This document shows positions 12,648 to 50,718 of a DNA stretch of 50,718 bases, in pieces. The DNA is from Cytophagaceae bacterium (GTDB lineage: Bacteria; Bacteroidota; Bacteroidia; Cytophagales; Cytophagaceae). The DNA is taken from contig JALONM010000037.1 of assembly GCA_025454925.1 (NCBI GenBank), forward strand, positions 1 through 50,718, written 5' to 3'. Numbering within the stretch: position 1 is the stretch's first letter; every line of letters begins with the position of its first letter. Both the position numbers and the translations under genes were made by a program. The notes below the pieces were generated by a model, which saw nothing but the letters and a program-made list of their open reading frames with translations, did no database searches and was not told the origin of the DNA.

Positions 12648-12762
12648 TGGGCGTGCCCCACGTGGCGCCTTAAACGCCACGTGGGTCGGGCTCTCCGCTT
12701 TTACTCCTCGCGGCGGCGCTTGTAGCGCCACCGCTGCGGGGTACCGCTGCGATCCCTCACGC
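12648..12762 (+). repeat. Structured intergenic repeat, copy A
   Basis: Begins TGGGCGTGCCCC and ends GATCCCTCACGC, with the shared core GGGTCGGGCT in the middle. Hairpin 1 uses CCACGTGGCG with CGCCACGTGG; hairpin 2 pairs the GC-rich arms around TTGTAG. Compared with copies B and C the core lacks the A of CTATCGCT. A further small hairpin (12767-12783) follows. The element is much richer in G+C than its surroundings. Confidence 0.75.
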
Positions 12763-12803
12763 AAAACCGGCGCTGCGCACCGGCATTCATTTCTACTTCA
12801 ACT

Positions 12804-12838
12804 GGCTTTTCTCAAAGAAGCGAAATTTTGAGAAAGCC
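12804..12838. other. Hairpin between repeat copies A and B
   Basis: GGCTTTTCTCAAA pairs with TTTTGAGAAAGCC, a 12-bp stem with one bulge and a nine-base loop. It may be a terminator or part of the repeat cluster; no T-run follows on either strand. Confidence 0.5.
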
Positions 12839-12994
12839 CATGCATGGTAGATCCATGGCCTGCATATCTCCATAGAAAATCATAGACTTCGAAAGTAATT
12901 TCGTTGTGTTTCATTCCATCTGAAATTTATGAGTCATTTCTCCATAGAAAGATTTTTAATAGAGGAATTCCATTTAAAAATATGGTTGGTATTT

Positions 12995-13107
12995 GCGTGA
13001 GGGATAGAGTGTAAAGCCTGGTGGTGGGGGGGGGGGGGGGGGGGCCCGCGCCACCACCACCAGGCTTGCAGCGATAGCCCGACCCAAGCGTAGCGAGGGA
13101 CACGCCC
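12995..13107 (-). repeat. Structured intergenic repeat, copy B (with G19 tract)
   Basis: Read on the minus strand it runs from GGGCGTGTCCCTCGC through GGGTCGGGCTATCGCTGCAA to CTCTATCCCTCACGC. Hairpin 2 is formed by GCCTGGTGGTGG and CCACCACCACCAGGC, and its loop carries an uninterrupted run of 19 G at 13026-13044 on the plus strand. Confidence 0.8.
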
Positions 13108-36674: not shown

Positions 36675-36783
36675 GCGTGAGGGATAGAGCGTAAAGACAT
36701 GGCGCCACCGGCGGCATGGCTTGCAGCGATAGCCCGGCCCGCCGTGGCTTGGCGCCTTAGGCGCCACCACAAGGGACACGCCC
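36675..36783 (-). repeat. Structured intergenic repeat, copy C
   Basis: On the minus strand: GGGCGTGTCCCTTG at the start, core GGGCCGGGCTATCGCTGCAA, end CTCTATCCCTCACGC. Hairpin 1 holds GGCGCC/TAA/GGCGCC; hairpin 2 pairs CATGCCGCC with GGCGCCATG. Outside the arms it agrees closely with copy B, but the arm sequences are unrelated. Confidence 0.8.
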
Positions 36784-36895
36784 AATATCCATCAGAAAAA
36801 CTACGAAATAAAATGTATTAAGGAAGAAGGATTTAGCTAAGAAACCAAACAGTAGAAAGTCGAATGCTTCCGGGTTGTAACGTGCTGAATTGTTT

Positions 36896-37000
36896 GGGCA
36901 GCCCCGCGCGTGGCGCGGGCCGGGCTATACGCTGCTACTACCCATACTACCGTGCTATGCGCACTGTAGTATGGGCGGTATCCGCTTCTATCCCTGCTGC
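36896..37000 (+). repeat. Structured intergenic repeat, copy D (diverged ends)
   Basis: Plus orientation: GGGCAGCCCCGCGCG, core GGGCCGGGCTATACGCTGC, end CTTCTATCCCTGCTGC. Hairpin 1 pairs CCCGCGC-type arms around TGG; hairpin 2 has the perfect arms CCCATACTAC and GTAGTATGGG. The terminal GCGTG/CACGC is lost, so this copy may be immobile. Confidence 0.7.
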
Positions 37001-37326: not shown

Positions 37327-40300
37327 ATGAAAAAATACTTGCGTTGCGCCACTACCTTCGTTTTTTTTCTATTTATATGTGTACTCCTGAATCAAGGTTA
37401 TGGACAAAATACTTACGTTGGGCCATTGTCTGGATCATGGAATACCAATTCTAATTGGTCGTCAGGGCTAGCTCCTACGAGCACGGACAATGTTGTAATC
37501 CCTGCGGGAAGAACCGTTAATTTTGATATTTTAACTGCAACCGTAAATAGTTTACAAATTGGGTCGGGTGCTACATTGCATTTAGGGACAAGTGCGGGTA
37601 CTGTTACATTTACCATTAATACGTTTTGCGATTTATCAGCAAGTGGCACCTTGGATTTTGGAACCAATGGTTCTCATACAGTAACCATTTTGGATGATCT
37701 TATAGGAAGCAATGGTACCATTATCATGAATTCATCCACAACCCATGTATTGAATTTGGGTGGTGATAATAATGAATTGAGTAATTTTAATTGCGCCACT
37801 ATTGGTACTGTTTTTTATAACCGCGTGGGTGATCAGAGTATGTTTATTTCCCCCAATTATAAAACGGTTCAAACCTCAAACTCTGGCATAAAGTCATTAG
37901 CAGGTTCGGGGACTACTTGCGCGATTAATGTACTTAATGTTGGAACCAATACGACATTCAGCATGGGAGTTAATCCTACGCCACCAGTGTTATCAGTTGC
38001 AGGAAATGTGACGATAGGTGCTAGCGCAACGTTTTCTTTTGGTTCTGTTAGCGCTAAATCGGTTACCATATCCGGGAACACTACTATGACAGCTGCAAAT
38101 TCTACCATCAATATGACCGGATTTGGACTGGCTCATACACTCAAATTTATGGGAACTACAGTTGTAGGCGCATCTACGGTCATCACTACAACACCAGGCA
38201 GTAAAAGTACCATCATTTATGCTGGCGGAGTTCATAATATTGTTAATGCAACGTATCAAAATGTAATCGTGGAAGGAGCTGCTGCAAAAACATTAGTATT
38301 TGGAACGCCTTCTACCTTTCAAGGAAAGTTAACCATAACCAAAGGGGCTACGCTAAGTCTGGGTGCAGTAGCTGGAACTTATACCTGCGACTCCCTGGAA
38401 ATTAATAATATCACTGCGGTAAGTGCACTTTCCATGGCTGCATCCACAGCCAAGGTGCTTAGGGTGTTGAGTCATTTCAACATGACAACCGGCACCACTC
38501 TGACGATGTCTACCTTGGCTACGCATAAATTAGAATTACAAGGACTCAACAACACATGCCTGGGTGCAATTACACAAACGGCAGGCAATACAATTGAATA
38601 TAGTGGCACCGGTGCTCAAAACATGCTCAATACAACGTATCAAAATCTATTACTTACAGGATCTTCCGGACAAAATAGATTAGTACAAGGTAACATAACG
38701 GTAAACGGGAACCTTACCAATAACAGTTGCACCTTGGTTTTTGGAAACACCGCAAGAACGGTTACCGTGTTGGGTGATTTGCTCGGGAATATTTCTTCTG
38801 CCATAGATATGAGATTGGTGGCAGGACACATGCTCGACTTGAAGGGGCCTAACAATACGTGTGGTAGTCTTATTACAGATGCTTCACTTTCAACGGTGCG
38901 CTATTCGGGTGGTGTGCAAACCGTGTTTGGATCCAATTCTTACCGCAGGCTTGAAGTAAACGGGGCGTCAAACAAATCATTAACCAATAATGTTTTTGTA
39001 CATAATCAGATCTTATTTTCGGGTAATGCAAAAATTATTTTAGGAACCTTCGATCTCACTCTTTCGGAAGTTGGAACATTTGGAGGATCTCCTTTTTCAA
39101 ATGCGAAAATGATCGAAACGAATGGCTTGAATACTCCGGCCGGCTCATTCATTAAACAAGGCACTGCAGCGCCCGCTTTTAACATGACTTATCCCCTGGG
39201 TACGAATTTCGTGTATACTCCTGTTACCATTTCAGGAATTACAGGAACCATCGGTGGGATGGCTTCCGTAGCGATGAAGCCAGTTGATAATACTGCTTCC
39301 TGTAACTCAGGCAATTGTTCTAAGAAGTATCTGTTGGTTTCAACTTCTAACTACACCATTACACAAGTTAATTTCAACTTTCAATTACCCGCTGCGGAAA
39401 TAGTAGGAACTCCCTCGCAGGTAAAGCGCAACGCCAATACAGTCAATGGTCAAACCATAGATTTAGGATTAGCAAGTTATGGCGCCAACGGATCCAATAC
39501 ATTCGATGGGTTGTGGCAATTGCTAAGTTCTGGTACTAAGTATTTCAGTGTAGCCGATGGCAGTTGGGAAGATGGCTCCATCTGGTCCACGATTGGTTTT
39601 GGTGCGGCAGCCTGCGGATGCACTCCGTCTTCATTTACGGATATCGTTCGTGTAGGCGATGGGAAACGTGTGATTAAATCTACTCCTTCTCCTGTTTCAG
39701 TAGATTCCATCCATATCGACGCAACAGGTGTTCTGGAATTGGGACAGAATGCCAGTTATGTTACCGCCAATGTTCTTTCCAATAAAGGTATCGGAGGAAA
39801 CGGGGTCTTATCCATTTCTGATGTGGCAGGTATTGTGAGCTGGCCCAACATTCTCACGCTTGATTTTATAACGGCTGCGGGAACTGGGAATAGTACGGTG
39901 GAGTATTTGGGGCTTGGAAATTTTATGCTTCCTTCCTTGCCCAATATATACAGGAATCTAAGTATCAAAGGCGGCTTTACAGCAACCTCACAAAGCAATT
40001 ACTCCGTTACTGGAAATTTGAGAGTATTGGCAGGTTCTACCCTCGACCTTCAAAATTTCTCTATGGATCATTCTATGCCGGCAGGAGATATTATTGAAAT
40101 CGCTACAACTTCATCGTTAATCATTGGTGGAACAAATACTTTTCCTGCTAACTACACGACCAGAACCATTGCCTCCAATTCTACTGTGGAATACAACGGA
40201 GGAAACCAAAATGTTGCCGCCTTAACTTACGCGCATTTAAAATGCTCCGTTGCTGGCACAAAGTCGCTAGTAGGGATTACGACAATTAACGGCCTGCTTA

Positions 40301-43300
40301 CAATCGGCTCCGGAGCTACCCTGGAGGCAGGGGCTTTCAATTGTAATGCCTATGGAAATGCACTCATACAGGGCATCTTCGATGATAATAACGGTGGCGG
40401 CATCAATTATTTTGGCGGCACCATTTCTGTTACTTCCTCTGGCAGATTCCTTAGCAATAGCATTTCTCAGTTTGATTTTTTTGACGATATCATCAACGAT
40501 GGAATTTTTCAACTGAATTCCTCAGGAGCTCCGGTAAATTTTTATAATACCAATACCTTTACCGCCAACAGCAACGTGCTGATGAACGCCACCTTGAATA
40601 TAACAGGTGCGTGGACCTTGGCAGGTTCCGCTACCTATACCATCAGCGATGTATTTATTCTTCCCACCGGCCAGGTAGATAATCAATCAACTGCGATTGT
40701 GTCAAATTCTATGGATGGGTCTGGACCATCTTCTAACTGGACGCAGTTGGCAAACAGTGTCCTTCACTATCGCGGTGCGACGCATCCATTCAGTTCATTT
40801 GGATATTTATCAGCAAGTTTTCCTCCTAACGTGGTGTATTTTGATGGAACATTGAATCAAGATGTCAATGGTGTGGTTGGGCAAACATTTCATCATCTAG
40901 TGCTGGGTGGAACCAATGATAAACGCTTAATGAATAATTTTTTTGTAAACGGTGATGTAACCATTGAAGCTGGCGCAAATTTAAATAGAAATAATTTTAA
41001 CATTTCATTACAGGGCAATTGGATTCAGCATGGTGGCGCTTTTGGTTCGGGAGATTTGGCATTTATAAATGCTGGTGCGGACCAAATCGTTGGAGGAACT
41101 AGCTCCAATGCTATTTTTGGATCGGTTACTATTAACAAGACTTCCGGACGTTTTGTCCGTTTTAACATTCCCAGCACGATCACTGGTGGTTTGAATTACA
41201 CAGGGAATGGCGATATAGAATTAAGTAATTTCACAGTTGGAGTTTCGACGATAACCGGCGGTTCCCCAACCCGCAGAGTTCTTACCAATGGCACAGGGAT
41301 GTTGTCCTTTTCAGCTGGCTTACTTGGATCTTACACGATTCACTTGGGCACTGGCCCTTCGGCGACAGCCGATTATACGCCTATTACCATAGCCCTTACC
41401 TCAGCATCATTTGGAGCAATCCCTGAAATCTCAGTCAGATCGGTGCCCTCTGTGGATCCCAATGTCATTTCAGCGTCTACGGCCTTAACAAGACATTTCA
41501 TAATTAATTCGTTTGATATTACGAATATTACCTCGGCCATTACCTTTACCTACGCGGATGGTGATGTGCAAGGAACAGAATCCAATTACGTTTCGGCATT
41601 TTGGAATACCAGTTGGGTAACCGGTAATACCGCAGCAGTAGATGAATCTACCAATCAAACTACTATCAATAAATCGGCGGCAACAAATTTTAACGGAAGT
41701 TATACGGCGGGAGAATTATTATCTTTTTCTGCGTCTAAATTTTATTCCAGACAAAACGGTGATTGGAATCTTCTCTCTACCTGGACAAATGATACTCTCG
41801 TGGGAAACCCTGTAACCGTTTTGCCAACCAATAGCAATTCCGCAATGATTCGGAACGGACACACAGTAACCTTGCCAGCCAGCCCTTGCCAGGCAGATTC
41901 CCTGATTATTAATTTCGGAGGAATCCTTTCAATGGGTAATAATGGAAATCAACTTTCTGTGAATGTTTTTTCCAATAATGGACATAATGGCAACGGTAAA
42001 GTGGTGGTTACGAATGCAAACTTTCCGACCATTGGAGTAAATGATTTTCTGAATGCTCAGGGAACCGGTAATAGCACCTGGGAGTTTGCAGGGGTAAATT
42101 TTGTGGTTCCGTTTTCATATCCAGCCAATTTTCGTAATGTTATTTTTTCCGCAAGCACCGACGTTACGTTGCAAAGAAATTTAACTATTGCGGGTGATGT
42201 ATCGCTGGTAACTAATTTGGCTCGCTTACTAATGGGCGTATTTACGATTGACCGGGCAAGTTTGGGCGGTAAGTTTGAAATGCTTGCCGGAGCTGAGTTG
42301 TGGTACAATGGAAATAATTTTCCATCCAACTATGCAACCTATATATTAGCACCAACCTCCTGGGTTTTTTTGGATGGAGAGGCACCTCAAATTATTAAGG
42401 GAAATATTAATTATGGTAATATTGGACTCACCTCTCAACCAAGTTTACAGACGAAAACGATTGACGGAGATATTATGTTGGCTGGCCAATTGTCCCTAGG
42501 CAATAATACTGTTTTTAGCTTTGGAAATGCGGCGGCTCGAAATGTAACGATTGATGGAGCGTTTTTTACTGGATCTGGCACTGTAGACATGAGTGGTGCA
42601 GGCCTGGCACATAATTTATATTTGGCAGGTACCGTTTATACACCTTCTTCATTTATTACCACAGATGGCTCTGGAAGTACGGTGCATTATTCCAGTGGTG
42701 CTACACAAACTGTTTTCCCCGCGTTGAATTATCAAAATTTGAATTTGATGAATAGTGGCTCCAAAATGGTAAATGGAAATACCATAGTAAGAGGCAATGT
42801 GAATTGCATGGGATCTACAACCTTACAACTTGGCAATTCTGTTTCTACATTTACGGTAGCAGGCAACATGAATATGGCCTCTACTACTACCCTGGTATAT
42901 TCAACCTCCACCGCTCAAACCGTGGCAGTTTCAGGAAATTATGCTGGTACAGGTTCTACCATTAATATGTCGGGTACAGGTTTGGCACATCGGTTGGAAT
43001 TAACGGGTGCGACGAACGATTTCGGATCTTTGACTACAACAGGTGGTTCTGGAAGCACCGTGCATTATAACTCCGCAGCTGCGCAATCCCTGCCTAATGG
43101 TATTTCGTATCAAGTATTAGAAGTATCGGGTGGCACAAAAAATTACAGTACCACGGGTACAATGGTGGTCAGTGGTGCTTTGAGATTAAATGGGGCAGTC
43201 ATTAATTTGGCTACTTCCGGATCTATAAATCTTGTTTTGGGGGCTACACTTACAAACAGTGTGGCATTTTCCACTACGAATATGGTGGCGACGAATGGCA

Positions 43301-46300
43301 CGGGTGTTTTCACAAGAGGGATAAACGCGGCAGCCGCCTATTTCTATCCTATTGGAACAACAGGAGCCTACGCTCCTTTGAACCTAAACGTAACTGCCGT
43401 TACTGGAGCTGGTACTGTATCTGCCAGAACAGTGGCTACTGTTGCTCCCAATCAAATTTCGGCAACCAATTCATTAACTAGATATTGGGCAATATCTGGT
43501 GCGGCGATTACCAGTATCTCCGGTACCTTTACTTACTCCTACAACGAAGGTGAAGTAATGGGAGGCGCAGGAAATGATGTTACTTACATAGCGGCCCATT
43601 GGCCTAATTCTTTTCCTTGGGTGAAGGGAACCTTGACCGATGTAGACGAGGTTGCAAATTCGATATCATTTACGAAGTCTGGAGCTAACATTGCCAGTTT
43701 TTCAGGTAATTATACCGCAGGACCTTTGAATGCTTTTGGAACCCCTGTCTATTATAGTCGCGTTGCCGCAGGAAACTTTGAGACGGCAGCATCTTGGTCC
43801 ACGGATCCTGTTTTGCAGCATACTGGTGCACCTGCGCTTACCCCACCTGCGGCGGGATCTGTAGTACGCATTGCAAACGGTCATACCATTACAAGAATTA
43901 CCAGTACGGCCTTAACTCTTGATACGTTGTACATCAATGCGGGAGGTAGGCTGAACATGGCTGCTACCACAGGTCTTACTGTCAATGTATTTTCTAATCA
44001 GGGAATAGGAGGGAACGGCACCATTGCATTCTCTGCTGGAAATTTTATTACCATTCCAATTCCCGCCAATAACTTATTCTGCTCCGGCGCAGGTACTGGC
44101 TTGGGAACAGTTGAGTATTCCGGAGTATCCTACAATTTACCTGCGGCACTAAGTACATTGCCCAATCTTTCATTGGTGAGCGCCGGAACGGTGACACGCA
44201 CTTTTTTGGGGAACTGTACTATTTTAGGGAATCTAGTGAGTGGCCTCAATATTACTGTTAACTTAGGTACAGTCGGAACGGTATTTTCTGTAGGTGGAAA
44301 TGTGTCGGTTACTACTACGTTTAATTTTGGTACCACTGTAGCCAAAACGTTATCCGTTGTTGGCGACTTTTCAGCTCCAACCTTAACGATGACAGGTGCC
44401 GGTCTGGCGCACCAATTAACCTTAGCCGGCGCGAATAACGGGGTTACTACATTGACCACCACTGCCGCTTCCGGAAGTAGAATTACCTATGCCCGTGTAG
44501 GAGCGCAGAATGCTTTTGCAAGCGCCAATTACCAGAATGTATCCATCGATGCCACTGCAAATGTTCTTTGGCCAGCCACTGCAGCCACTACCTTGGCTTC
44601 AAATCTTATTCTTAATGGGATGTTGAATATTGGAGGGGCTTCTGCCAATGGATTTACAGTGAATGGAACTACGGCATTTGGCCCAAGCTCAACGCTTACT
44701 TTTTCAGCCTCGGTAGTTCGGCAGATGACCTTATCCGGAACAATTACAAGTGCTCCGGGCGCTGCCATTAATAATCCAATGGCCAATCCGCATGTTATAA
44801 ATATTACCGCCGCCTCTGTTCAATTACCTCCAATCATTAACATGGTGGGAGGAAACCTTAATATAAGTGGGGGCGCCGGGCAGATCATTTCTTACCTGGC
44901 AGGAACCAATCACACGCTCAGCAATTTTACCCTAACTGGTGCCGGAGTCAAAATGATGGTGGCGGGTGGAACTAATCCGACCATAGCAACCAATACCATG
45001 AATATAAATACGGCGACTTTGGATCTCAATGATTTGCCGCTCATTACGATCAACGGAAATTTAAATATTAACTCTTTAGGTATTCTTCGATATGGCTCTA
45101 CCGCCGCGCCAAATAGCATTATAGTTAATGGAGATTTATCTGGGGTGGCCGGTTCCAAAATAGAAATGCAACTGGCTAATAATGGATCATTGCTGACGTT
45201 AAATGGTACTACCAATACATTAGGATCCTTATCCATCAATCCAGGAAATAATACCATCGTTAGATATGGAGCAATGGCCAATCAAAATTTATTGACAGGT
45301 GTTACGGAGTATAATTTTTTAGAAATTGCAGGGAGTGGTCAAAAAAATGTGGTGGAGACAACTCTTACTGTTTATCGGAGTTTGAATCTATCGGGTACAA
45401 CAACATTTAACCTCTCTAATATTTCCGTTACTGCAAATATCCATCAATCCGTCAATGCAGTTCCCACAGCCAATTTCGAATTCGGTACCTCCTTTCCGAA
45501 AACCGTAAATATTTTAAGCACTACCCTAACATCCACCTTTGGTACAATAAATATGACAGGAGCTGGCCTTAGCCATACACTACGGTTAGCTTGTCCATCG
45601 GTAACATTGGTAAATTTCAATACAACGCCTGGAGCCAATAGCACGGTGGAGTACAATGGAACGGTGCCCCAGCAGATTTTTACTTCAGCGAATTATCAGA
45701 TCCTTAGAATTAGCGGAGGTACTGAAAAATCGCTCTCCGGACTTTGTGCAGTAAACAACGCCTTGGATTTGGTAAGTGGAATAGTTGATCTGTCGGGATT
45801 TGATTTGGTATTGGGTGCTGGTACTATCCTAACCGGTTCTCCATTCAATGCGACCAATATGATTCGTACGAGTGGTGCCGGTAGATTACAAATTGGATAT
45901 TCGACTCCGGTAAACAAAATATTTCCGGTGGGCACTGGATCTCATTATTCCCCGGCATCTGTTAATGTTACAGCATTATCAGGAACAGGGTCTGTGTCTT
46001 TGCAGGCAGTTGCTGGCACACATCCTCAAGTGCTTCAGCCAAGTACGGCCTTACTGAAATATTGGGATGTAACAGCTTCTGGATTTTCTTCCTTAACCGC
46101 CAATATTGAATTCACCTATGTTGATCCTTCTGAATTGCAGGTTGTCGAAACTTCTTATACCCATGGTGGGCAATACACCGGAGCGCTACCTTGGATAACC
46201 AATGGAACGGTGAATACCACCACCAATGTAGTAACCTTCAATGCGAGGAGTTTATCCAATCTAGGTGGATTCTACACAGCAGGCCCATTATCTACGTTCT

Positions 46301-49300
46301 CTTTGTCAAGCTATTATTCCGTTGCAGACGGAAATTGGGAATCCGGAACAACATGGTCTACCACTGGATATTCTACTCCTAATTGTGGATGCGTTCCTGG
46401 CCCAGGAGCAAAAGTGTATATTGGCGATAATAGGATTGTAACCAAGTCTAATGCTACTGCCTTTACTTTAGATTCATTGACAATTGATGCAACAGGTACG
46501 TTGGATCTAGGAACCAGTGGGGCAAGTTTGACAATATCGGTGCTTACCAATAAGGGTATTGGTGGCAATGGTAGATTAAAGTTAGGTGGAAATATAACAC
46601 CATCATTACCGGCCATTACGACCAATGATTTTTTGAATTCAGTTGGAACAGGAGCTTCTACATTAGAATTTTATGCTACGGCGGATTACAATGCGCCATC
46701 ATTACCTGCCAATATTCAGCATCTGATTTTTTCGGGTACGAATAAAATTACCTTAACCAATGGCGCTACGGTGAGAGGTGATTTAACCGTTACTGGAAAG
46801 TTGGATATAAATACCAGTATGCTCAACCAGCCGGTATGCTGCGCCAATACATTTACACTAGGAGCGGGTGCTGAATTGCATACGAACGAATCTGGATTAA
46901 TTGCGATTCCATTTAATTTTTTAACGTATGCCTTTGATCCTACTTCTACGGTATTTTACTATTCAATAGTGAATCAAAATATTTATGGAGGAGGGAGTGT
47001 AACCTATGGTAATTTGGTGCTTTCAGGAAATTCAGAAAAAAGAGGGTCTGGGGATGTGGTTACTGTGGGGAATGTAGATGTGCTTGGTACCACCGAATTT
47101 AATATGGACGCTTCTGGCGCAACGTATAATAGCATTGGAGGAAACTTGAACATGCAGGCAGGCGCTTCCATGAATTTTTCTACAGCAGGTGAAACCGTTA
47201 ACATTGATGGTAATTTGATTGCCCCTGCAGGAATAATTAATATGGGAACAGCTTCAACAAGTTTGCTGATTCTTAATGGGGCTACCAATCAAGCTGGGTC
47301 CTTATTTACTTCTGTAGCCGGACAAATCGTGCGCTATGCAGGAACCGTTCCTCAGACAGTTTTTCCAAGTTTAAATTACCGGACCTTGGAATTAGACGGT
47401 GGTACCGCTAAAACCTTACAAGGATCGGTGAATATAGGTGAAAGTGTTTCCTTTTTAGGAAATGCCACGTTGGTATTAGGGACTTTTGATTTGATATTAA
47501 ATGCTCCAGCAATGATTTCCGGTAGCCCTTTTTCGGCTTCTCGAACAATTGTGTTTGATGCCCTGCTCGGTGGTGGTAAAATCGTTCAGAAAGGTACTGC
47601 TTCCGTTGACTTCTTAAAAGTATATCCTATGGGAACTCCTGGTGGATATTCTGAGCTATCTTTTTCTTTGTTAAATTCTGCAGCCTTCGGTGTAGGTACA
47701 TTAAGCATAGAACCTTACGACACTACGGGTGCTAATGTGGCTCATACCAATTTGAGATTAATACCTAACTTTGTATCAAATGCAGCCAGCTTTTCACTAA
47801 AAACAGCCATGACAGGTACGCCAACCGCTGTCACTAAAAATGGAGTGGCAACCACCAATCCATACCTGATAGTGCCAAACGAATATGGAATCACTGCCAC
47901 GTCTGGAATTCAAAATATAAATGGAGTTTGGCGTTGTCTCGTACCTCCTGCTCAGCGTTTTTATTCCATCGCCGATGGTTCTTGGGAAATAGGTACAACC
48001 TGGTCTCAACTAGGGTTTGCTGGAACAACGTGTAATTGTACGCCTACGCCAGGTTCTGCTGTGTATATAGGGAATGGAAGAACAGTGTCGAAAGTGAATG
48101 CTACACTGGTATCTGTAGATACCATTCGGATTGATGATACAGGTGTGTTGGATGTTGGTACCAGTGGTGGTTCCATTGCTGCCAACGTGCTGTCAAATAT
48201 AGGTTTGGGAGGTAATGGAACCTTACGACTAGGAGGAAATATTACTCCTACATTTCCAACGGTTGCTGTTAATGATTTCTTGAATGCACCAGGAACTGGA
48301 CCTTCTACCTTGGAGTATTATGCCACAATTCCGTATACCACACCATTGCCCGCTACTGTCCAAAGTTTAGCCTTTTCTGGTTCGAGTAAAATCACAATTT
48401 CCAATAGTGCAACCGTGAATCAAGATCTCACGATTACAGGAAAATTGGATATTGCTACGTTCAATGTAAGCAGAACCATTGGGGGAGGAACTTTTACTCT
48501 TGGACCAGGTGCAGAATTACATACAGGGCTGACAGTTCCGATTTCAATACCGAATTTCTATTCTAACCCATATACCGTTGATCCGACTTCTACAGTCTAT
48601 TATTACTCCAATAGCAATCAGTCGGTGTTTGGAGGTGCCAATATCACGTATGGGAACTTAGTGCTTTCAGGAAGTGGTACAAAGACGGCTTCTGGCGCAG
48701 TAACCACAGTAGGTAATGTTTTTGTTCAGGGTGCAGGCACCGTCGTAATGACCTCCTTGTCTTCCGGAATATTTGTTGGTGGCAATCTTACCATAGACAA
48801 TGGCTGCACCTTGCGTTTTACATCCTCTTTCTTTTCACAGGTTAGAGTAGATGGTGATCTTAATGCGATCTCAGGAACCATCGATTTTGGAACATTTGCC
48901 GGTGTTAATGGTGCTCGATTAACATTGAATGGTGCAAACAATCAACTGGGAACTCATGTGTCAACCATTGCCAATCAAAAGGTCATTTATTCAGGTGCTG
49001 CGGTGCAACAGGTATTTGGTTCAACCAATTATCAAACGCTTGAATTGGCCGCCGGTCCGGATAAATTTTTACAATCGAGCATTACTGTAAAATCAGCCAT
49101 TAGTTTTACAGGAGATACTAAGCTGATTTTAGGCGCTAATAATCTTCTTCTAAGTTCAGCGACTGCAATTACCGGTGGCCCATTCTCTGCTTCTCGTATG
49201 ATTATGGTTGATGCCATACCGGGAGGAGGCCAAGTGCAACAAGAAGGTACCATCGCGGCTCATTTTATTAAAACATATCCAGTTGGAACGCCAAGTGGAT

Positions 49301-50718
49301 TTTCTGAATTGACCATAACACAGATTGGTTCCACTGCATTTGGTGCGGGTCGATTGAATATTGAGCCATACGATACAACAGGCACCAATCTGGCTTTGAT
49401 GAATCTAATTCTTCAAACCAATTTCGCGACCAACCTGGCAGAATTTACTTACACAGTTCCGATGAATGGAACTCCTACAAACGTTTTTAAAAATGGACAA
49501 TCGGTGGCGAATCCAGTCATGAATGTTCCAAATTTTTATGGCATCAACACGAGTTCTGGCATTCAACAAATAGCCGGTACATGGAGATTCCTTCAATTGA
49601 ATACCGTTGAACCAGCTGGAGTTACTCCACTACCTCCGTTTTGTGCGGGTCAAGGTTTTGATATGAGTTATACCATTGGAGGGATTTTTAATGCCGGAAA
49701 TATCTTTACACTTCAGCTTTCAGATGCAACAGGAAGCTTTGCTGTACCAGTGGCATTAAAGTCAATAAACTCCACTACCGCGGGTAATTTCCTTGCTAAT
49801 ATTCCTGAAGGAACGCCTTCCGGAAATGCCTATAAAGTTCGGATAGTAGCGTCTAATCCATACGTCGAAGGAACTCCAATTTCGGGTGGTTTTACCATCA
49901 ATCCGCAACCCGTTTTTGTCGCCCAGCCACCAGCCTCTGTTAGTGGTTGCGAATCAGCAGCTCTTATCGCAGTGCCTGTAACGGCTCCAACCGCTACTGT
50001 TTTTCAATGGCGTTTCAATGGAGTGAATGTATCGGATGGTCCTGTAGTAAATGGAACAACAACCAATACCTTGACTTTATCTTCACCTACTCCGGCTTTA
50101 TCGTATTCCGGAACATACGATGTTATTGCTACTACGAGCGCTGGTTGTGTAGATACATCTGCCGCGGCAGCAGTTACCATAAATTCCATTCCTATTGCAC
50201 CAACAGCCACAATTGTTGCGCAACCTACCTGTGCACTTCCAAGCGGATCGATAGATATCATTGCTCCATTGGGTGCAGTAGAATACGCGATGGATGGCGG
50301 TGCGTATCAGCCTTCAGTAAACTTCACGGCAGTCGCTCCTGGCAATCATAGCTTCACGGCGAGATTGGTAGCAGACATTACCTGCGTGAGTCCGGCCTCG
50401 GTGAGCTACACGATCAATCCGGCCCCTACTGTACCTGCGACTCCAACGGCTACGATTACCGCACAACCTACCTGTGCACTGCCAAGCGGATCGATAGATA
50501 TCACAGCACCACTGGGCGCCTTTGAATATGCGATGGACGGCGGAACGTATCAGCCTTCAATCAACTTCACCGCAGTAGCTCCTGGCAACCATAGCTTCAC
50601 GGCAAGATTGATAGCAGACATTACCTGCGTGAGTCCAGCCTCGGTGAACTATACCATCAATCCAACGCCACTAGTTCCGGTGGCTCCCACGGTGAACACA
50701 GTAACGCAAGCTACTTGT
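37327..50718 (+). CDS. Giant modular surface protein (type IX-secreted adhesin-like), 3' end outside window
   Basis: The frame opens at ATG 37327 with a signal peptide (MKKYLRCATTFVFFLFICVL) and stays open to the last base: 4,464 codons and no stop. Six modules begin with a short Trp motif: 'SGSWNTNSNWSSG' (residue about 36), then near residues 739, 1472, 2142, 2996 and 3545 with 'YYSVADGNWESGTTW'-like sequences, followed by 'NKGIGGNG' and beta-strand ladders such as 'GSTVHYSSGATQTVF' and 'YQNLNLMNSG'. The last two modules are paralogues of about 549 residues. An Ig-like segment (about 4200-4287) and 81-residue SprB-type repeats follow ('PTCALPSGSIDI' at residues 4300 and 4381, a third starting at 4462). 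SprB is the gliding adhesin of Flavobacterium; an adhesive role here is inferred. A sorting tail is expected beyond the window. Confidence 0.85.
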   Translation, partial: MKKYLRCATTFVFFLFICVLLNQGYGQNTYVGPLSGSWNTNSNWSSGLAPTSTDNVVIPAGRTVNFDILTATVNSLQIGSGATLHLGTSAGTVTFTINTFCDLSASGTLDFGTNGSHTVTILDDLIGSNGTIIMNSSTTHVLNLGGDNNELSNFNCATIGTVFYNRVGDQSMFISPNYKTVQTSNSGIKSLAGSGTTCAINVLNVGTNTTFSMGVNPTPPVLSVAGNVTIGASATFSFGSVSAKSVTISGNTTMTAANSTINMTGFGLAHTLKFMGTTVVGASTVITTTPGSKSTIIYAGGVHNIVNATYQNVIVEGAAAKTLVFGTPSTFQGKLTITKGATLSLGAVAGTYTCDSLEINNITAVSALSMAASTAKVLRVLSHFNMTTGTTLTMSTLATHKLELQGLNNTCLGAITQTAGNTIEYSGTGAQNMLNTTYQNLLLTGSSGQNRLVQGNITVNGNLTNNSCTLVFGNTARTVTVLGDLLGNISSAIDMRLVAGHMLDLKGPNNTCGSLITDASLSTVRYSGGVQTVFGSNSYRRLEVNGASNKSLTNNVFVHNQILFSGNAKIILGTFDLTLSEVGTFGGSPFSNAKMIETNGLNTPAGSFIKQGTAAPAFNMTYPLGTNFVYTPVTISGITGTIGGMASVAMKPVDNTASCNSGNCSKKYLLVSTSNYTITQVNFNFQLPAAEIVGTPSQVKRNANTVNGQTIDLGLASYGANGSNTFDGLWQLLSSGTKYFSVADGSWEDGSIWSTIGFGAAACGCTPSSFTDIVRVGDGKRVIKSTPSPVSVDSIHIDATGVLELGQNASYVTANVLSNKGIGGNGVLSISDVAGIVSWPNILTLDFITAAGTGNSTVEYLGLGNFMLPSLPNIYRNLSIKGGFTATSQSNYSVTGNLRVLAGSTLDLQNFSMDHSMPAGDIIEIATTSSLIIGGTNTFPANYTTRTIASNSTVEYNGGNQNVAALTYAHLKCSVAGTKSLVGITTINGLLTIGSGATLEAGAFNCNAYGNALIQGIFDDNNGGGINYFGGTISVTSSGRFLSNSISQFDFFDDIINDGIFQLNSSGAPVNFYNTNTFTANSNVLMNATLNITGAWTLAGSATYTISDVFILPTGQVDNQSTAIVSNSMDGSGPSSNWTQLANSVLHYRGATHPFSSFGYLSASFPPNVVYFDGTLNQDVNGVVGQTFHHLVLGGTNDKRLMNNFFVNGDVTIEAGANLNRNNFNISLQGNWIQHGGAFGSGDLAFINAGADQIVGGTSSNAIFGSVTINKTSGRFVRFNIPSTITGGLNYTGNGDIELSNFTVGVSTITGGSPTRRVLTNGTGMLSFSAGLLGSYTIHLGTGPSATADYTPITIALTSASFGAIPEISVRSVPSVDPNVISASTALTRHFIINSFDITNITSAITFTYADGDVQGTESNYVSAFWNTSWVTGNTAAVDESTNQTTINKSAATNFNGSYTAGELLSFSASKFYSRQNGDWNLLSTWTNDTLVGNPVTVLPTNSNSAMIRNGHTVTLPASPCQADSLIINFGGILSMGNNGNQLSVNVFSNNGHNGNGKVVVTNANFPTIGVNDFLNAQGTGNSTWEFAGVNFVVPFSYPANFRNVIFSASTDVTLQRNLTIAGDVSLVTNLARLLMGVFTIDRASLGGKFEMLAGAELWYNGNNFPSNYATYILAPTSWVFLDGEAPQIIKGNINYGNIGLTSQPSLQTKTIDGDIMLAGQLSLGNNTVFSFGNAAARNVTIDGAFFTGSGTVDMSGAGLAHNLYLAGTVYTPSSFITTDGSGSTVHYSSGATQTVFPALNYQNLNLMNSGSKMVNGNTIVRGNVNCMGSTTLQLGNSVSTFTVAGNMNMASTTTLVYSTSTAQTVAVSGNYAGTGSTINMSGTGLAHRLELTGATNDFGSLTTTGGSGSTVHYNSAAAQSLPNGISYQVLEVSGGTKNYSTTGTMVVSGALRLNGAVINLATSGSINLVLGATLTNSVAFSTTNMVATNGTGVFTRGINAAAAYFYPIGTTGAYAPLNLNVTAVTGAGTVSARTVATVAPNQISATNSLTRYWAISGAAITSISGTFTYSYNEGEVMGGAGNDVTYIAAHWPNSFPWVKGTLTDVDEVANSISFTKSGANIASFSGNYTAGPLNAFGTPVYYSRVAAGNFETAASWSTDPVLQHTGAPALTPPAAGSVVRIANGHTITRITSTALTLDTLYINAGGRLNMAATTGLTVNVFSNQGIGGNGTIAFSAGNFITIPIPANNLFCSGAGTGLGTVEYSGVSYNLPAALSTLPNLSLVSAGTVTRTFLGNCTILGNLVSGLNITVNLGTVGTVFSVGGNVSVTTTFNFGTTVAKTLSVVGDFSAPTLTMTGAGLAHQLTLAGANNGVTTLTTTAASGSRITYARVGAQNAFASANYQNVSIDATANVLWPATAATTLASNLILNGMLNIGGASANGFTVNGTTAFGPSSTLTFSASVVRQMTLSGTITSAPGAAINNPMANPHVINITAASVQLPPIINMVGGNLNISGGAGQIISYLAGTNHTLSNFTLTGAGVKMMVAGGTNPTIATNTMNINTATLDLNDLPLITINGNLNINSLGILRYGSTAAPNSIIVNGDLSGVAGSKIEMQLANNGSLLTLNGTTNTLGSLSINPGNNTIVRYGAMANQNLLTGVTEYNFLEIAGSGQKNVVETTLTVYRSLNLSGTTTFNLSNISVTANIHQSVNAVPTANFEFGTSFPKTVNILSTTLTSTFGTINMTGAGLSHTLRLACPSVTLVNFNTTPGANSTVEYNGTVPQQIFTSANYQILRISGGTEKSLSGLCAVNNALDLVSGIVDLSGFDLVLGAGTILTGSPFNATNMIRTSGAGRLQIGYSTPVNKIFPVGTGSHYSPASVNVTALSGTGSVSLQAVAGTHPQVLQPSTALLKYWDVTASGFSSLTANIEFTYVDPSELQVVETSYTHGGQYTGALPWITNGTVNTTTNVVTFNARSLSNLGGFYTAGPLSTFSLSSYYSVADGNWESGTTWSTTGYSTPNCGCVPGPGAKVYIGDNRIVTKSNATAFTLDSLTIDATGTLDLGTSGASLTISVLTNKGIGGNGRLKLGGNITPSLPAITTNDFLNSVGTGASTLEFYATADYNAPSLPANIQHLIFSGTNKITLTNGATVRGDLTVTGKLDINTSMLNQPVCCANTFTLGAGAELHTNESGLIAIPFNFLTYAFDPTSTVFYYSIVNQNIYGGGSVTYGNLVLSGNSEKRGSGDVVTVGNVDVLGTTEFNMDASGATYNSIGGNLNMQAGASMNFSTAGETVNIDGNLIAPAGIINMGTASTSLLILNGATNQAGSLFTSVAGQIVRYAGTVPQTVFPSLNYRTLELDGGTAKTLQGSVNIGESVSFLGNATLVLGTFDLILNAPAMISGSPFSASRTIVFDALLGGGKIVQKGTASVDFLKVYPMGTPGGYSELSFSLLNSAAFGVGTLSIEPYDTTGANVAHTNLRLIPNFVSNAASFSLKTAMTGTPTAVTKNGVATTNPYLIVPNEYGITATSGIQNINGVWRCLVPPAQRFYSIADGSWEIGTTWSQLGFAGTTCNCTPTPGSAVYIGNGRTVSKVNATLVSVDTIRIDDTGVLDVGTSGGSIAANVLSNIGLGGNGTLRLGGNITPTFPTVAVNDFLNAPGTGPSTLEYYATIPYTTPLPATVQSLAFSGSSKITISNSATVNQDLTITGKLDIATFNVSRTIGGGTFTLGPGAELHTGLTVPISIPNFYSNPYTVDPTSTVYYYSNSNQSVFGGANITYGNLVLSGSGTKTASGAVTTVGNVFVQGAGTVVMTSLSSGIFVGGNLTIDNGCTLRFTSSFFSQVRVDGDLNAISGTIDFGTFAGVNGARLTLNGANNQLGTHVSTIANQKVIYSGAAVQQVFGSTNYQTLELAAGPDKFLQSSITVKSAISFTGDTKLILGANNLLLSSATAITGGPFSASRMIMVDAIPGGGQVQQEGTIAAHFIKTYPVGTPSGFSELTITQIGSTAFGAGRLNIEPYDTTGTNLALMNLILQTNFATNLAEFTYTVPMNGTPTNVFKNGQSVANPVMNVPNFYGINTSSGIQQIAGTWRFLQLNTVEPAGVTPLPPFCAGQGFDMSYTIGGIFNAGNIFTLQLSDATGSFAVPVALKSINSTTAGNFLANIPEGTPSGNAYKVRIVASNPYVEGTPISGGFTINPQPVFVAQPPASVSGCESAALIAVPVTAPTATVFQWRFNGVNVSDGPVVNGTTTNTLTLSSPTPALSYSGTYDVIATTSAGCVDTSAAAAVTINSIPIAPTATIVAQPTCALPSGSIDIIAPLGAVEYAMDGGAYQPSVNFTAVAPGNHSFTARLVADITCVSPASVSYTINPAPTVPATPTATITAQPTCALPSGSIDITAPLGAFEYAMDGGTYQPSINFTAVAPGNHSFTARLIADITCVSPASVNYTINPTPLVPVAPTVNTVTQATC
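46312..49600 (+). repeat. Tandem pair of ~1,647-bp modules in the giant gene
   Basis: Modules starting at 46312 and 47959 share the same order of motifs throughout: 'GKLDI', 'GAELHT', 'DPTSTV.YY', 'YGNLVLSG', 'SGSPFSASR'/'TGGPFSASR', 'YPMGTPGGYSEL'/'YPVGTPSGFSEL', 'IEPYDTTG', 'GI..I.G.WR'. The DNA has diverged but the proteins align end to end. This is an internal duplication. Confidence 0.8.
50192..50718 (+). repeat. 243-bp tandem repeats encoding SprB-type units
   Basis: The unit around CAACCTACCTGTGCAC at 50221 recurs at 50464 and again, more diverged, at 50707, an exact 243-base period (81 codons). Units 1 and 2 differ at about 11 residues by eye. The array runs off the window edge. Confidence 0.9.

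Follow-up and report, generated by a model that had tools for sequence, protein, structure and literature searches.

The repeats in the window, here the whole 50,718-nt stretch of Cytophagaceae DNA that was analysed, are, as judged by covariance-model matching, members of Flavo-1 (Rfam RF01705), a known RNA family of the Bacteroidota without an assigned function. Though the family is already known, its full architecture, a predicted closed three-way junction, and its dispersal are added here. The element is probably a small mobile element rather than an ordinary gene-control RNA. There is about an even chance that the Flavo-1 repeats of the Bacteroidota are short, REP-like mobile elements that are not autonomous and are transferred, in the form of a folded single strand, by an enzyme acting in trans. 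A further-reaching version is put forward tentatively and is somewhat doubtful, namely that Flavo-1 is not a regulatory RNA and may represent a phylum-wide minimal mobile class, in which a folded strand of about 100 nt with its own ends paired is inserted without duplication by a non-RAYT enzyme.

Four structured repeats had been placed in the window by the original prediction, and all four are present (Table 1). Of the 51 copies used to train the family covariance model, 41 came from the 102 loci with the exact sequence frame and 10 from the window's own genome, among them the four of the window. In the window, the model returns exactly these four matches, all of them training rows, with E values from 9.7e-12 to 1e-9. 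The Rfam Flavo-1 model matches copies A, B and D at E<0.002, on the strand opposite to that first read, and no match is listed for copy C up to E 5. At Rfam's own cut-off, a gathering score of 42 bits, there are zero Flavo-1 matches in the window, all copies scoring lower. Relatives in other loci also match on the opposite strand, and several exceed this cut-off (L399, 70.2 bits; L281, 57.5; L282, 56.9; L293, 55.5; L154, 44.8), as does one place in L157, and one copy of the genome G570 scores 70.2 bits. Membership in Flavo-1 by model match is given by E value for copies A, B and D, and by cut-off for the relatives. The Rfam model finds nothing in 14 named control genomes, as expected of a family confined to Bacteroidota. 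Among the 80 exact-frame matches listed, one record is titled Planctomycetaceae (a MAG), while the other 79 bear Bacteroidota-type names and are taken here to be Bacteroidota.

Table 1. Repeat copies and associated flank in the window
Feature	Position	Strand	Family model (bits)	Flavo-1 model	Remarks
Copy A	12649..12762	-	62.0	27.7 bits, E 0.0013	Strand is the Flavo-1 sense, 5'-GCGTGAGGGAT..; the frame first read lies on the other strand
Copy B	12995..13107	+ (opposite to A)	53.3	28.3 bits, E 0.0009	
Copy C	36675..36783	+	52.8		Unconstrained fold is a three-way junction
Copy D	36896..37000	- (opposite to C)	57.0	37.1 bits, E 2.9e-6	Closing stem GCAGC/GCTGC; fold z -5.27
Right-hand part of the larger ~400-nt repeat unit (copy B flank common to other copies of the same genome)	12801..12994 (limits approximate)	-			76% identity to typed flank consensus, left flank 70%; flank similarity peak about +15 to +210

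The ends of the copies had been described as fixed, which is not quite accurate. Copy D departs from this by a compensatory change, with GCAGC..GCTGC in place of the GCGTG..CACGC of the others, and copy A has CGATCCC and GGGCTCT there. A hairpin arm of copy B carries a run of about 19 G (window about 13026-13044), and a long C run lies inside a hairpin arm of L033 (around 1924-2046); both look as if the arms had grown by slippage. Elsewhere in the window, an open frame of at least 4464 codons (37327-50718) starts about 330 nt beyond copy D, runs past the window end and contains a 243-nt repeat pair at 50200-50685. A perfect 29-nt tandem repeat of two units lies at 347-404, within a mechanical open frame.

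In the 4.52-Mb genome of the window, the frame first read, GGGCGTGNCCC..CGGGCT, occurs 107 times (55 forward, 52 reverse), against 0 for a reversed-pattern control, and a related longer pattern ending in CTATCCCT occurs 62 times. The family model finds at least 146 places at E<=0.001, with 150 of 772 candidates scored. The existence of similar sequences in other Bacteroidota, suggested with the original prediction, is borne out by the presence of the exact frame in at least 102 stretches of titled genomes; the 80 matches listed include Flavobacterium, Pedobacter, Algoriphagus, Epilithonimonas, Chryseobacterium, Saprospiraceae, Chitinophagaceae, Tannerellaceae and others. Sampling of 296 Bacteroidota genomes, under strict filters and with 13 candidates scored in the genomes listed, gives 47 model-positive genomes from 24 of 140 genera, the window's genome included. 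A fuller scan of 14 chosen positive genomes, with up to 150 candidates scored in each, gives 2 to 82 copies, the largest number being that of G570. The view that the element is of low copy number elsewhere, based on 1-4 exact-pattern copies in most genomes, was dropped given these counts from the structural model. An origin in phage, plasmid or ssDNA was likewise rejected, as one query copy and one exact pattern found almost nothing in phage and plasmid collections: the exact pattern occurs in 3 viral contigs, and the query copy gives one partial match in each collection.

The full unit is about 70-150 nt in length (71-142, 81-130 and 76-151 nt in three sets of copies), and its majority sequence on the Flavo-1 strand in the 51-copy alignment is GCGTGAGGGATAGNAGCGGAAAGCCC..GAGGANTTGCAGCGGATAGCCCGACCC..GGGGCACGCCC. 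Unconstrained folding of copies C and D yields one three-way junction of a closing stem (P1), the P2 arm and hairpin 1. On the Flavo-1 strand, P1 is predicted to be a 5-bp end stem, GCGUG/CACGC, pairing the two ends of the unit. P2, predicted as GGGAUA/UAGCCC with a fixed A.G mismatch, carries hairpin 2 and fixed internal loops, rich in purines, in which G.A pairs could form, while hairpin 1 (CCC/GGG) is the third arm of the predicted junction. The two hairpins vary freely between copies. P1 and P2 are predicted together in 79 of 85 copies of the window's genome, 82 of the 102 phylum loci and 13 of 23 copies located directly after pdxJ in flavobacteria. The P2 mismatch is kept in 83/85, 70/70 and 23/23 copies of the own-genome, phylum and pdxJ sets, respectively.

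The strand was assigned to the Flavo-1 sense because of the fold energies and the Rfam match. This strand is the more stable with RNA parameters in 79/85 own-genome, 82/102 phylum and 19/23 pdxJ copies, and with DNA parameters in 80/85, 86/102 and 18/23. Counts of G.U pairs do not point one way. Those in hairpin 1 of the window's genome favour the Flavo-1 strand (30 v 8), whereas those in hairpin 2 favour the strand first read (10 v 1 at pdxJ, 30 v 14 in the window's genome and 71 v 5 across the 102 loci, the last apparently due mainly to one conserved position) and speak partly against the assignment. On the strand first read, position 8 and the base before CGGGCT are T.C in 63 of 85 copies of the window's genome, C.T in 14, T.T in 6 and T.G in 2, so that on the Flavo-1 strand most copies have the purines of the mismatch swapped; in other lineages this pair is mostly C.T or A-T, and in the genome G543 also C.C (5/20).

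The hairpin arms differ between copies while staying self-complementary, as had been claimed, and tests of arm partners, of the alignment and of compensation in P1 and P2 all agree that pairing is kept despite sequence change. In the window's genome, the mean paired run of an arm with its own partner exceeds that with re-dealt partners both in hairpin 1 (7.42 v 6.33, z 7.6, 85 copies) and in hairpin 2 (9.13 v 5.60, z 18.7, 83 copies). The same comparison gives z 10.7 and 12.4 for hairpins 1 and 2 in a phylum set of 70 copies, from which 32 of the 102 loci had been dropped for flanks resembling another's and several of which may share one genome, and z 3.4 and 6.5 in the 23 pdxJ copies. At one shared site, the arms have been replaced wholesale yet are still complementary. 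In the 51-row alignment, 93.0% of pairing cells are paired against 86.9% when shuffled, and 58 double changes are seen against 18.2, with 0 of 500 shuffles reaching either value; P1 and P2 were hardly able to vary in this alignment because most rows were found by the exact pattern.

P1 and P2 also covary, with compensatory changes that include those at the shared site after pdxJ, where copies were found by flanking sequence. Among these 23 copies, P1 is GCGTG/CACGC in 14 and GCATG/CATGC in 5; a further 2 copies have one G.T in P1, and in the other 2 the stem is broken. The last P2 pair is A-T in 12, G-C in 6, T-A in 2 and other in the rest. L293 and L282 closely resemble each other and are set apart by the double change. 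The 20 copies each of G543 (P1 GCGTG/CACGC in 12 and GCGTT/AACGC in 8, P2 changing in step in 19/20) and G570 (five compensated P2 variants, one P1 broken) add further cases, in which pairing is favoured by row choice because these 40 copies are the top model hits.

In G570 and G543 (20 copies each), related flanks are found in 0 of 190 upstream pairs in each genome and in 0 and 3 of 190 downstream pairs. The flanks being almost wholly unrelated, the unit would end near P1. Direct 3-nt duplications around the unit occur in 0/20, 1/20, 0/98 and 0/82 copies of four sets, giving no convincing target duplication. Two of the 20 G543 copies have flanks with a direct match of 4 nt, a level that 43 of 500 shuffles reach. 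A T-run precedes the unit, with T at -3 to -1 at frequencies of 0.90 in G570, 0.77-0.85 in the phylum set, 0.52-0.89 in the window's genome and only 0.35-0.60 in G543, and A follows at +1 at 0.69-1.0 across four sets. All 6 copy pairs less than 1 kb apart among the model's listed matches in the window's genome are in opposite orientation.

In combination, scattered copies in either orientation, with sharp ends and without duplication, suggest a mobile repeat, and the kept junction, T-run and 3' A suggest recognition of a folded single strand. The unit may accordingly be pictured as moving in the form of a folded single strand, with recognition through the junction and fixed loops and insertion at sites that have a T-run on the 5' side and an A on the 3' side. 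IS200/IS605-type Y1 enzymes leave no target duplication, and by analogy an enzyme supplied in trans, which may be of the Y1 kind like those of IS200/IS605 and REP systems, would leave none here. In the window's genome, further amplification would have occurred as part of a larger repeat of ~400 nt. No clean pair of empty and filled sites was demonstrated, which counts against the mobile reading, as do the 4-nt flank matches in G543, the near-absence of matches in phage and plasmid collections, and the negative RAYT tests described below.

Related species have element sites in common, for example beside ileS in Algoriphagus. For the site directly after pdxJ, 110 loci were retrieved from 148 matching flavobacterial genomes, one of them cut off; a structured copy is present in 23 of the 109 that could be read. 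L289 and L306 appear to be remnants, and other loci are empty. The compensatory change at this site indicates constraint on at least some of the resident copies, so that a role as host RNA or DNA stays in consideration, and the in-place compensation suggests selection on resident copies beyond what would be required for a mobile element in decay.

A host function as a structured RNA, either an sRNA, as Rfam labels the family, or an untranslated-region element whose transcribed junction binds a protein or ligand while the hairpins only hold the junction together, is unlikely. The idea of a small structured RNA was already part of the original prediction and fits the Rfam match, the earlier interpretation as a whole being partly supported; the better folding of the Flavo-1 strand with both parameter sets, the fixed purine-rich loops and the compensation at pdxJ also favour it. 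In passages on Flavo-1 in a Flavobacterium psychrophilum transcriptome study, several 5' transcribed regions coincide with Flavo-1; however, matches there are sense and antisense to transcripts, with many outside, and give no clue to function (PMC9723704). A further argument against a host RNA comes from orientation to genes, as tandem neighbours are 16 same and 21 opposite in the window's genome and 18 and 30 elsewhere (mechanical gene calls), with no fixed orientation of the kind expected for cis-regulation. In addition, neighbouring genes differ between locus groups rather than being related, and the copy number reaches at least 146.

Retention after an ancient spread as a host-beneficial DNA or mRNA-end site, like Escherichia coli BIMEs acting in protein binding, supercoiling or mRNA stability, is distinctly unlikely. 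It would agree with the sites common to related species at pdxJ and ileS, and with an excess of copies in convergent gene gaps of the window's genome (26/70 v 5/36 background gaps, mechanical gene calls). However, other loci show no such excess (13/83 v 27/163 background gaps, mechanical gene calls), and most of the relatives examined lack a structured copy at pdxJ.

REP elements of the Bacteroidota RAYT subclass (2.6 of PMC6006769) are improbable as the identity of the family. An excerpt on this subclass describes its members as flanked by "atypical secondary structures" (PMC6006769), and 36 of the 49 genomes that carry the element also hold RAYT relatives (matches at E up to 0.001, in part weak). 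The window's genome holds two Y1, RAYT-like fragments, decayed or cut off, G000:C54:19-459 (L106) and G000:C61:996-1262 (L052), the first of which gives an NCBIfam REP_Tyr_transpos match of 53.6 bits (E 2.2e-14), short of the curated cut-off of 80 bits, and lies ~260 bp from an element. A RAYT fragment was taken as query because the top Pfam Y1 matches in the taxonomic order looked, by eye, IS200-type and not RAYT. Against these points, only 1 of 30 RAYT loci, that of the same decayed fragment, has an element detected by the family model within 1.5 kb, compared with 0 of 30 loci of top Y1_Tnp matches; a looser pattern gives 2/30, the second being a 2-mismatch end motif, and 0/30. Across 44 genomes, copy numbers of element and RAYT are not positively correlated (exact-pattern counts; rho -0.25, p 0.098), and RAYT matches are absent from genomes that carry 12, 13 and 16 copies of the exact pattern. 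No flanking RAYT gene (REPtron) characterizes the family, and the 51-copy alignment has no fixed GT[AG]G (GTAG/GTGG) foot at a hairpin. RAYT was rejected as partner on these negative flanking and co-occurrence tests. The earlier proposal of a REP-type element therefore stands for the many dispersed, structured copies with sharp ends and no target duplication, and falls for the RAYT link.

A mutational origin of arm complementarity, by template switching in imperfect palindromes or conversion between copies instead of selection, would account for the wholesale turnover of arms at one shared site but is highly improbable, as the two sides of P1 and P2, tens of nt apart around other hairpins, change in step (GCGTG/CACGC, GCATG/CATGC, GCGTT/AACGC, GCAGC/GCTGC) and the P2 mismatch that such correction is expected to remove has stayed.

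In the window's genome, the larger repeat of ~400 nt encloses many of the copies, with flanks common to copies over roughly -90 to +220. Downstream flanks resemble another in 61 of 85 copies, and the typed flank consensus is matched on both sides at >70% identity in 18 of 80 copies and at >60% in 45 of 80, the latter being nearly reachable by chance. Target duplication of the larger unit is seen in 2 of 8 exact-ended copies against a shuffled mean of 1.0. A ~187-nt repeat with ends ACC..GGT is related to the right part of the ~400-nt unit, is present at many of the loci and has 34 near-full-length matches in the stretches searched. Of its 20 exact-ended copies, 11 have matching 3-nt flanks, TNA triplets, where shuffling gives a mean of 6.4 (p 0.015), and it looks like a young MITE, younger than the ~400-nt repeat. 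Loci of the ~187-nt repeat include L105, L080, L046, L073 and others, with many copies 94-98% like the typed consensus. A third palindromic repeat, AACCGCAATTAGACAGTAG..CTACTGTCTAATTGCGGTT, with AACC..GGTT ends, was seen by eye in L063, L005, L042, L087 and L090, and is whole only in L063.

In Table 1 of Weinberg et al. (2010), Flavo-1 is given as a Bacteroidota RNA that is not cis-regulatory (PMC2864571), and the passage of a review that names it gives no function (PMC9029176). No account of its mobility, dispersal, larger structure or full architecture was found by searching open-licence papers for the family name, and a search with sequence words of the element gave nothing relevant among the matches listed. 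The Rfam model resembles the window repeats in the sequence and structure of the middle arm, in strand sense and in its restriction to Bacteroidota. It differs in length (76 nt), covering the middle arm without the P1 and hairpin 1 present in the full unit, and finds 5 places in the window's genome, 1 of them over the cut-off (150 of 971 candidates scored), where the full model recovers many more and provides a fixed structure to test. In addition, the family is listed as a non-cis RNA, whereas here it looks like a dispersed mobile-type repeat. If it is such a repeat with a larger closed structure, small-RNA-gene labels on Flavo-1 matches would mislead, transcriptome studies would gain a reason for sense and antisense matches, and finding the mobilising enzyme would become a concrete task.

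Among known mobile repeats, MITEs are similar in that the element rides in a larger repeat in the window's genome, whose ~187-nt relative has 3-nt flank matches. They differ in having terminal inverted repeats with target duplication, whereas the ends of the element itself form no more than a 5-bp stem and no convincing target duplication surrounds it; for a Cardinium MITE, an excerpt describes an element tied to an IS (PMC9769881). Compared with REP/BIME elements and their RAYT (TnpA-REP), the Flavo-1 unit of about 70-150 nt is distinguished by its three-way junction and paired ends, and by having neither a fixed GTAG/GTGG foot nor a flanking RAYT. In common with them, it consists of short structured units present in many copies and both orientations, mostly intergenic and with no convincing target duplication, and its close pairs are inverted like those of BIMEs (6/6 listed).
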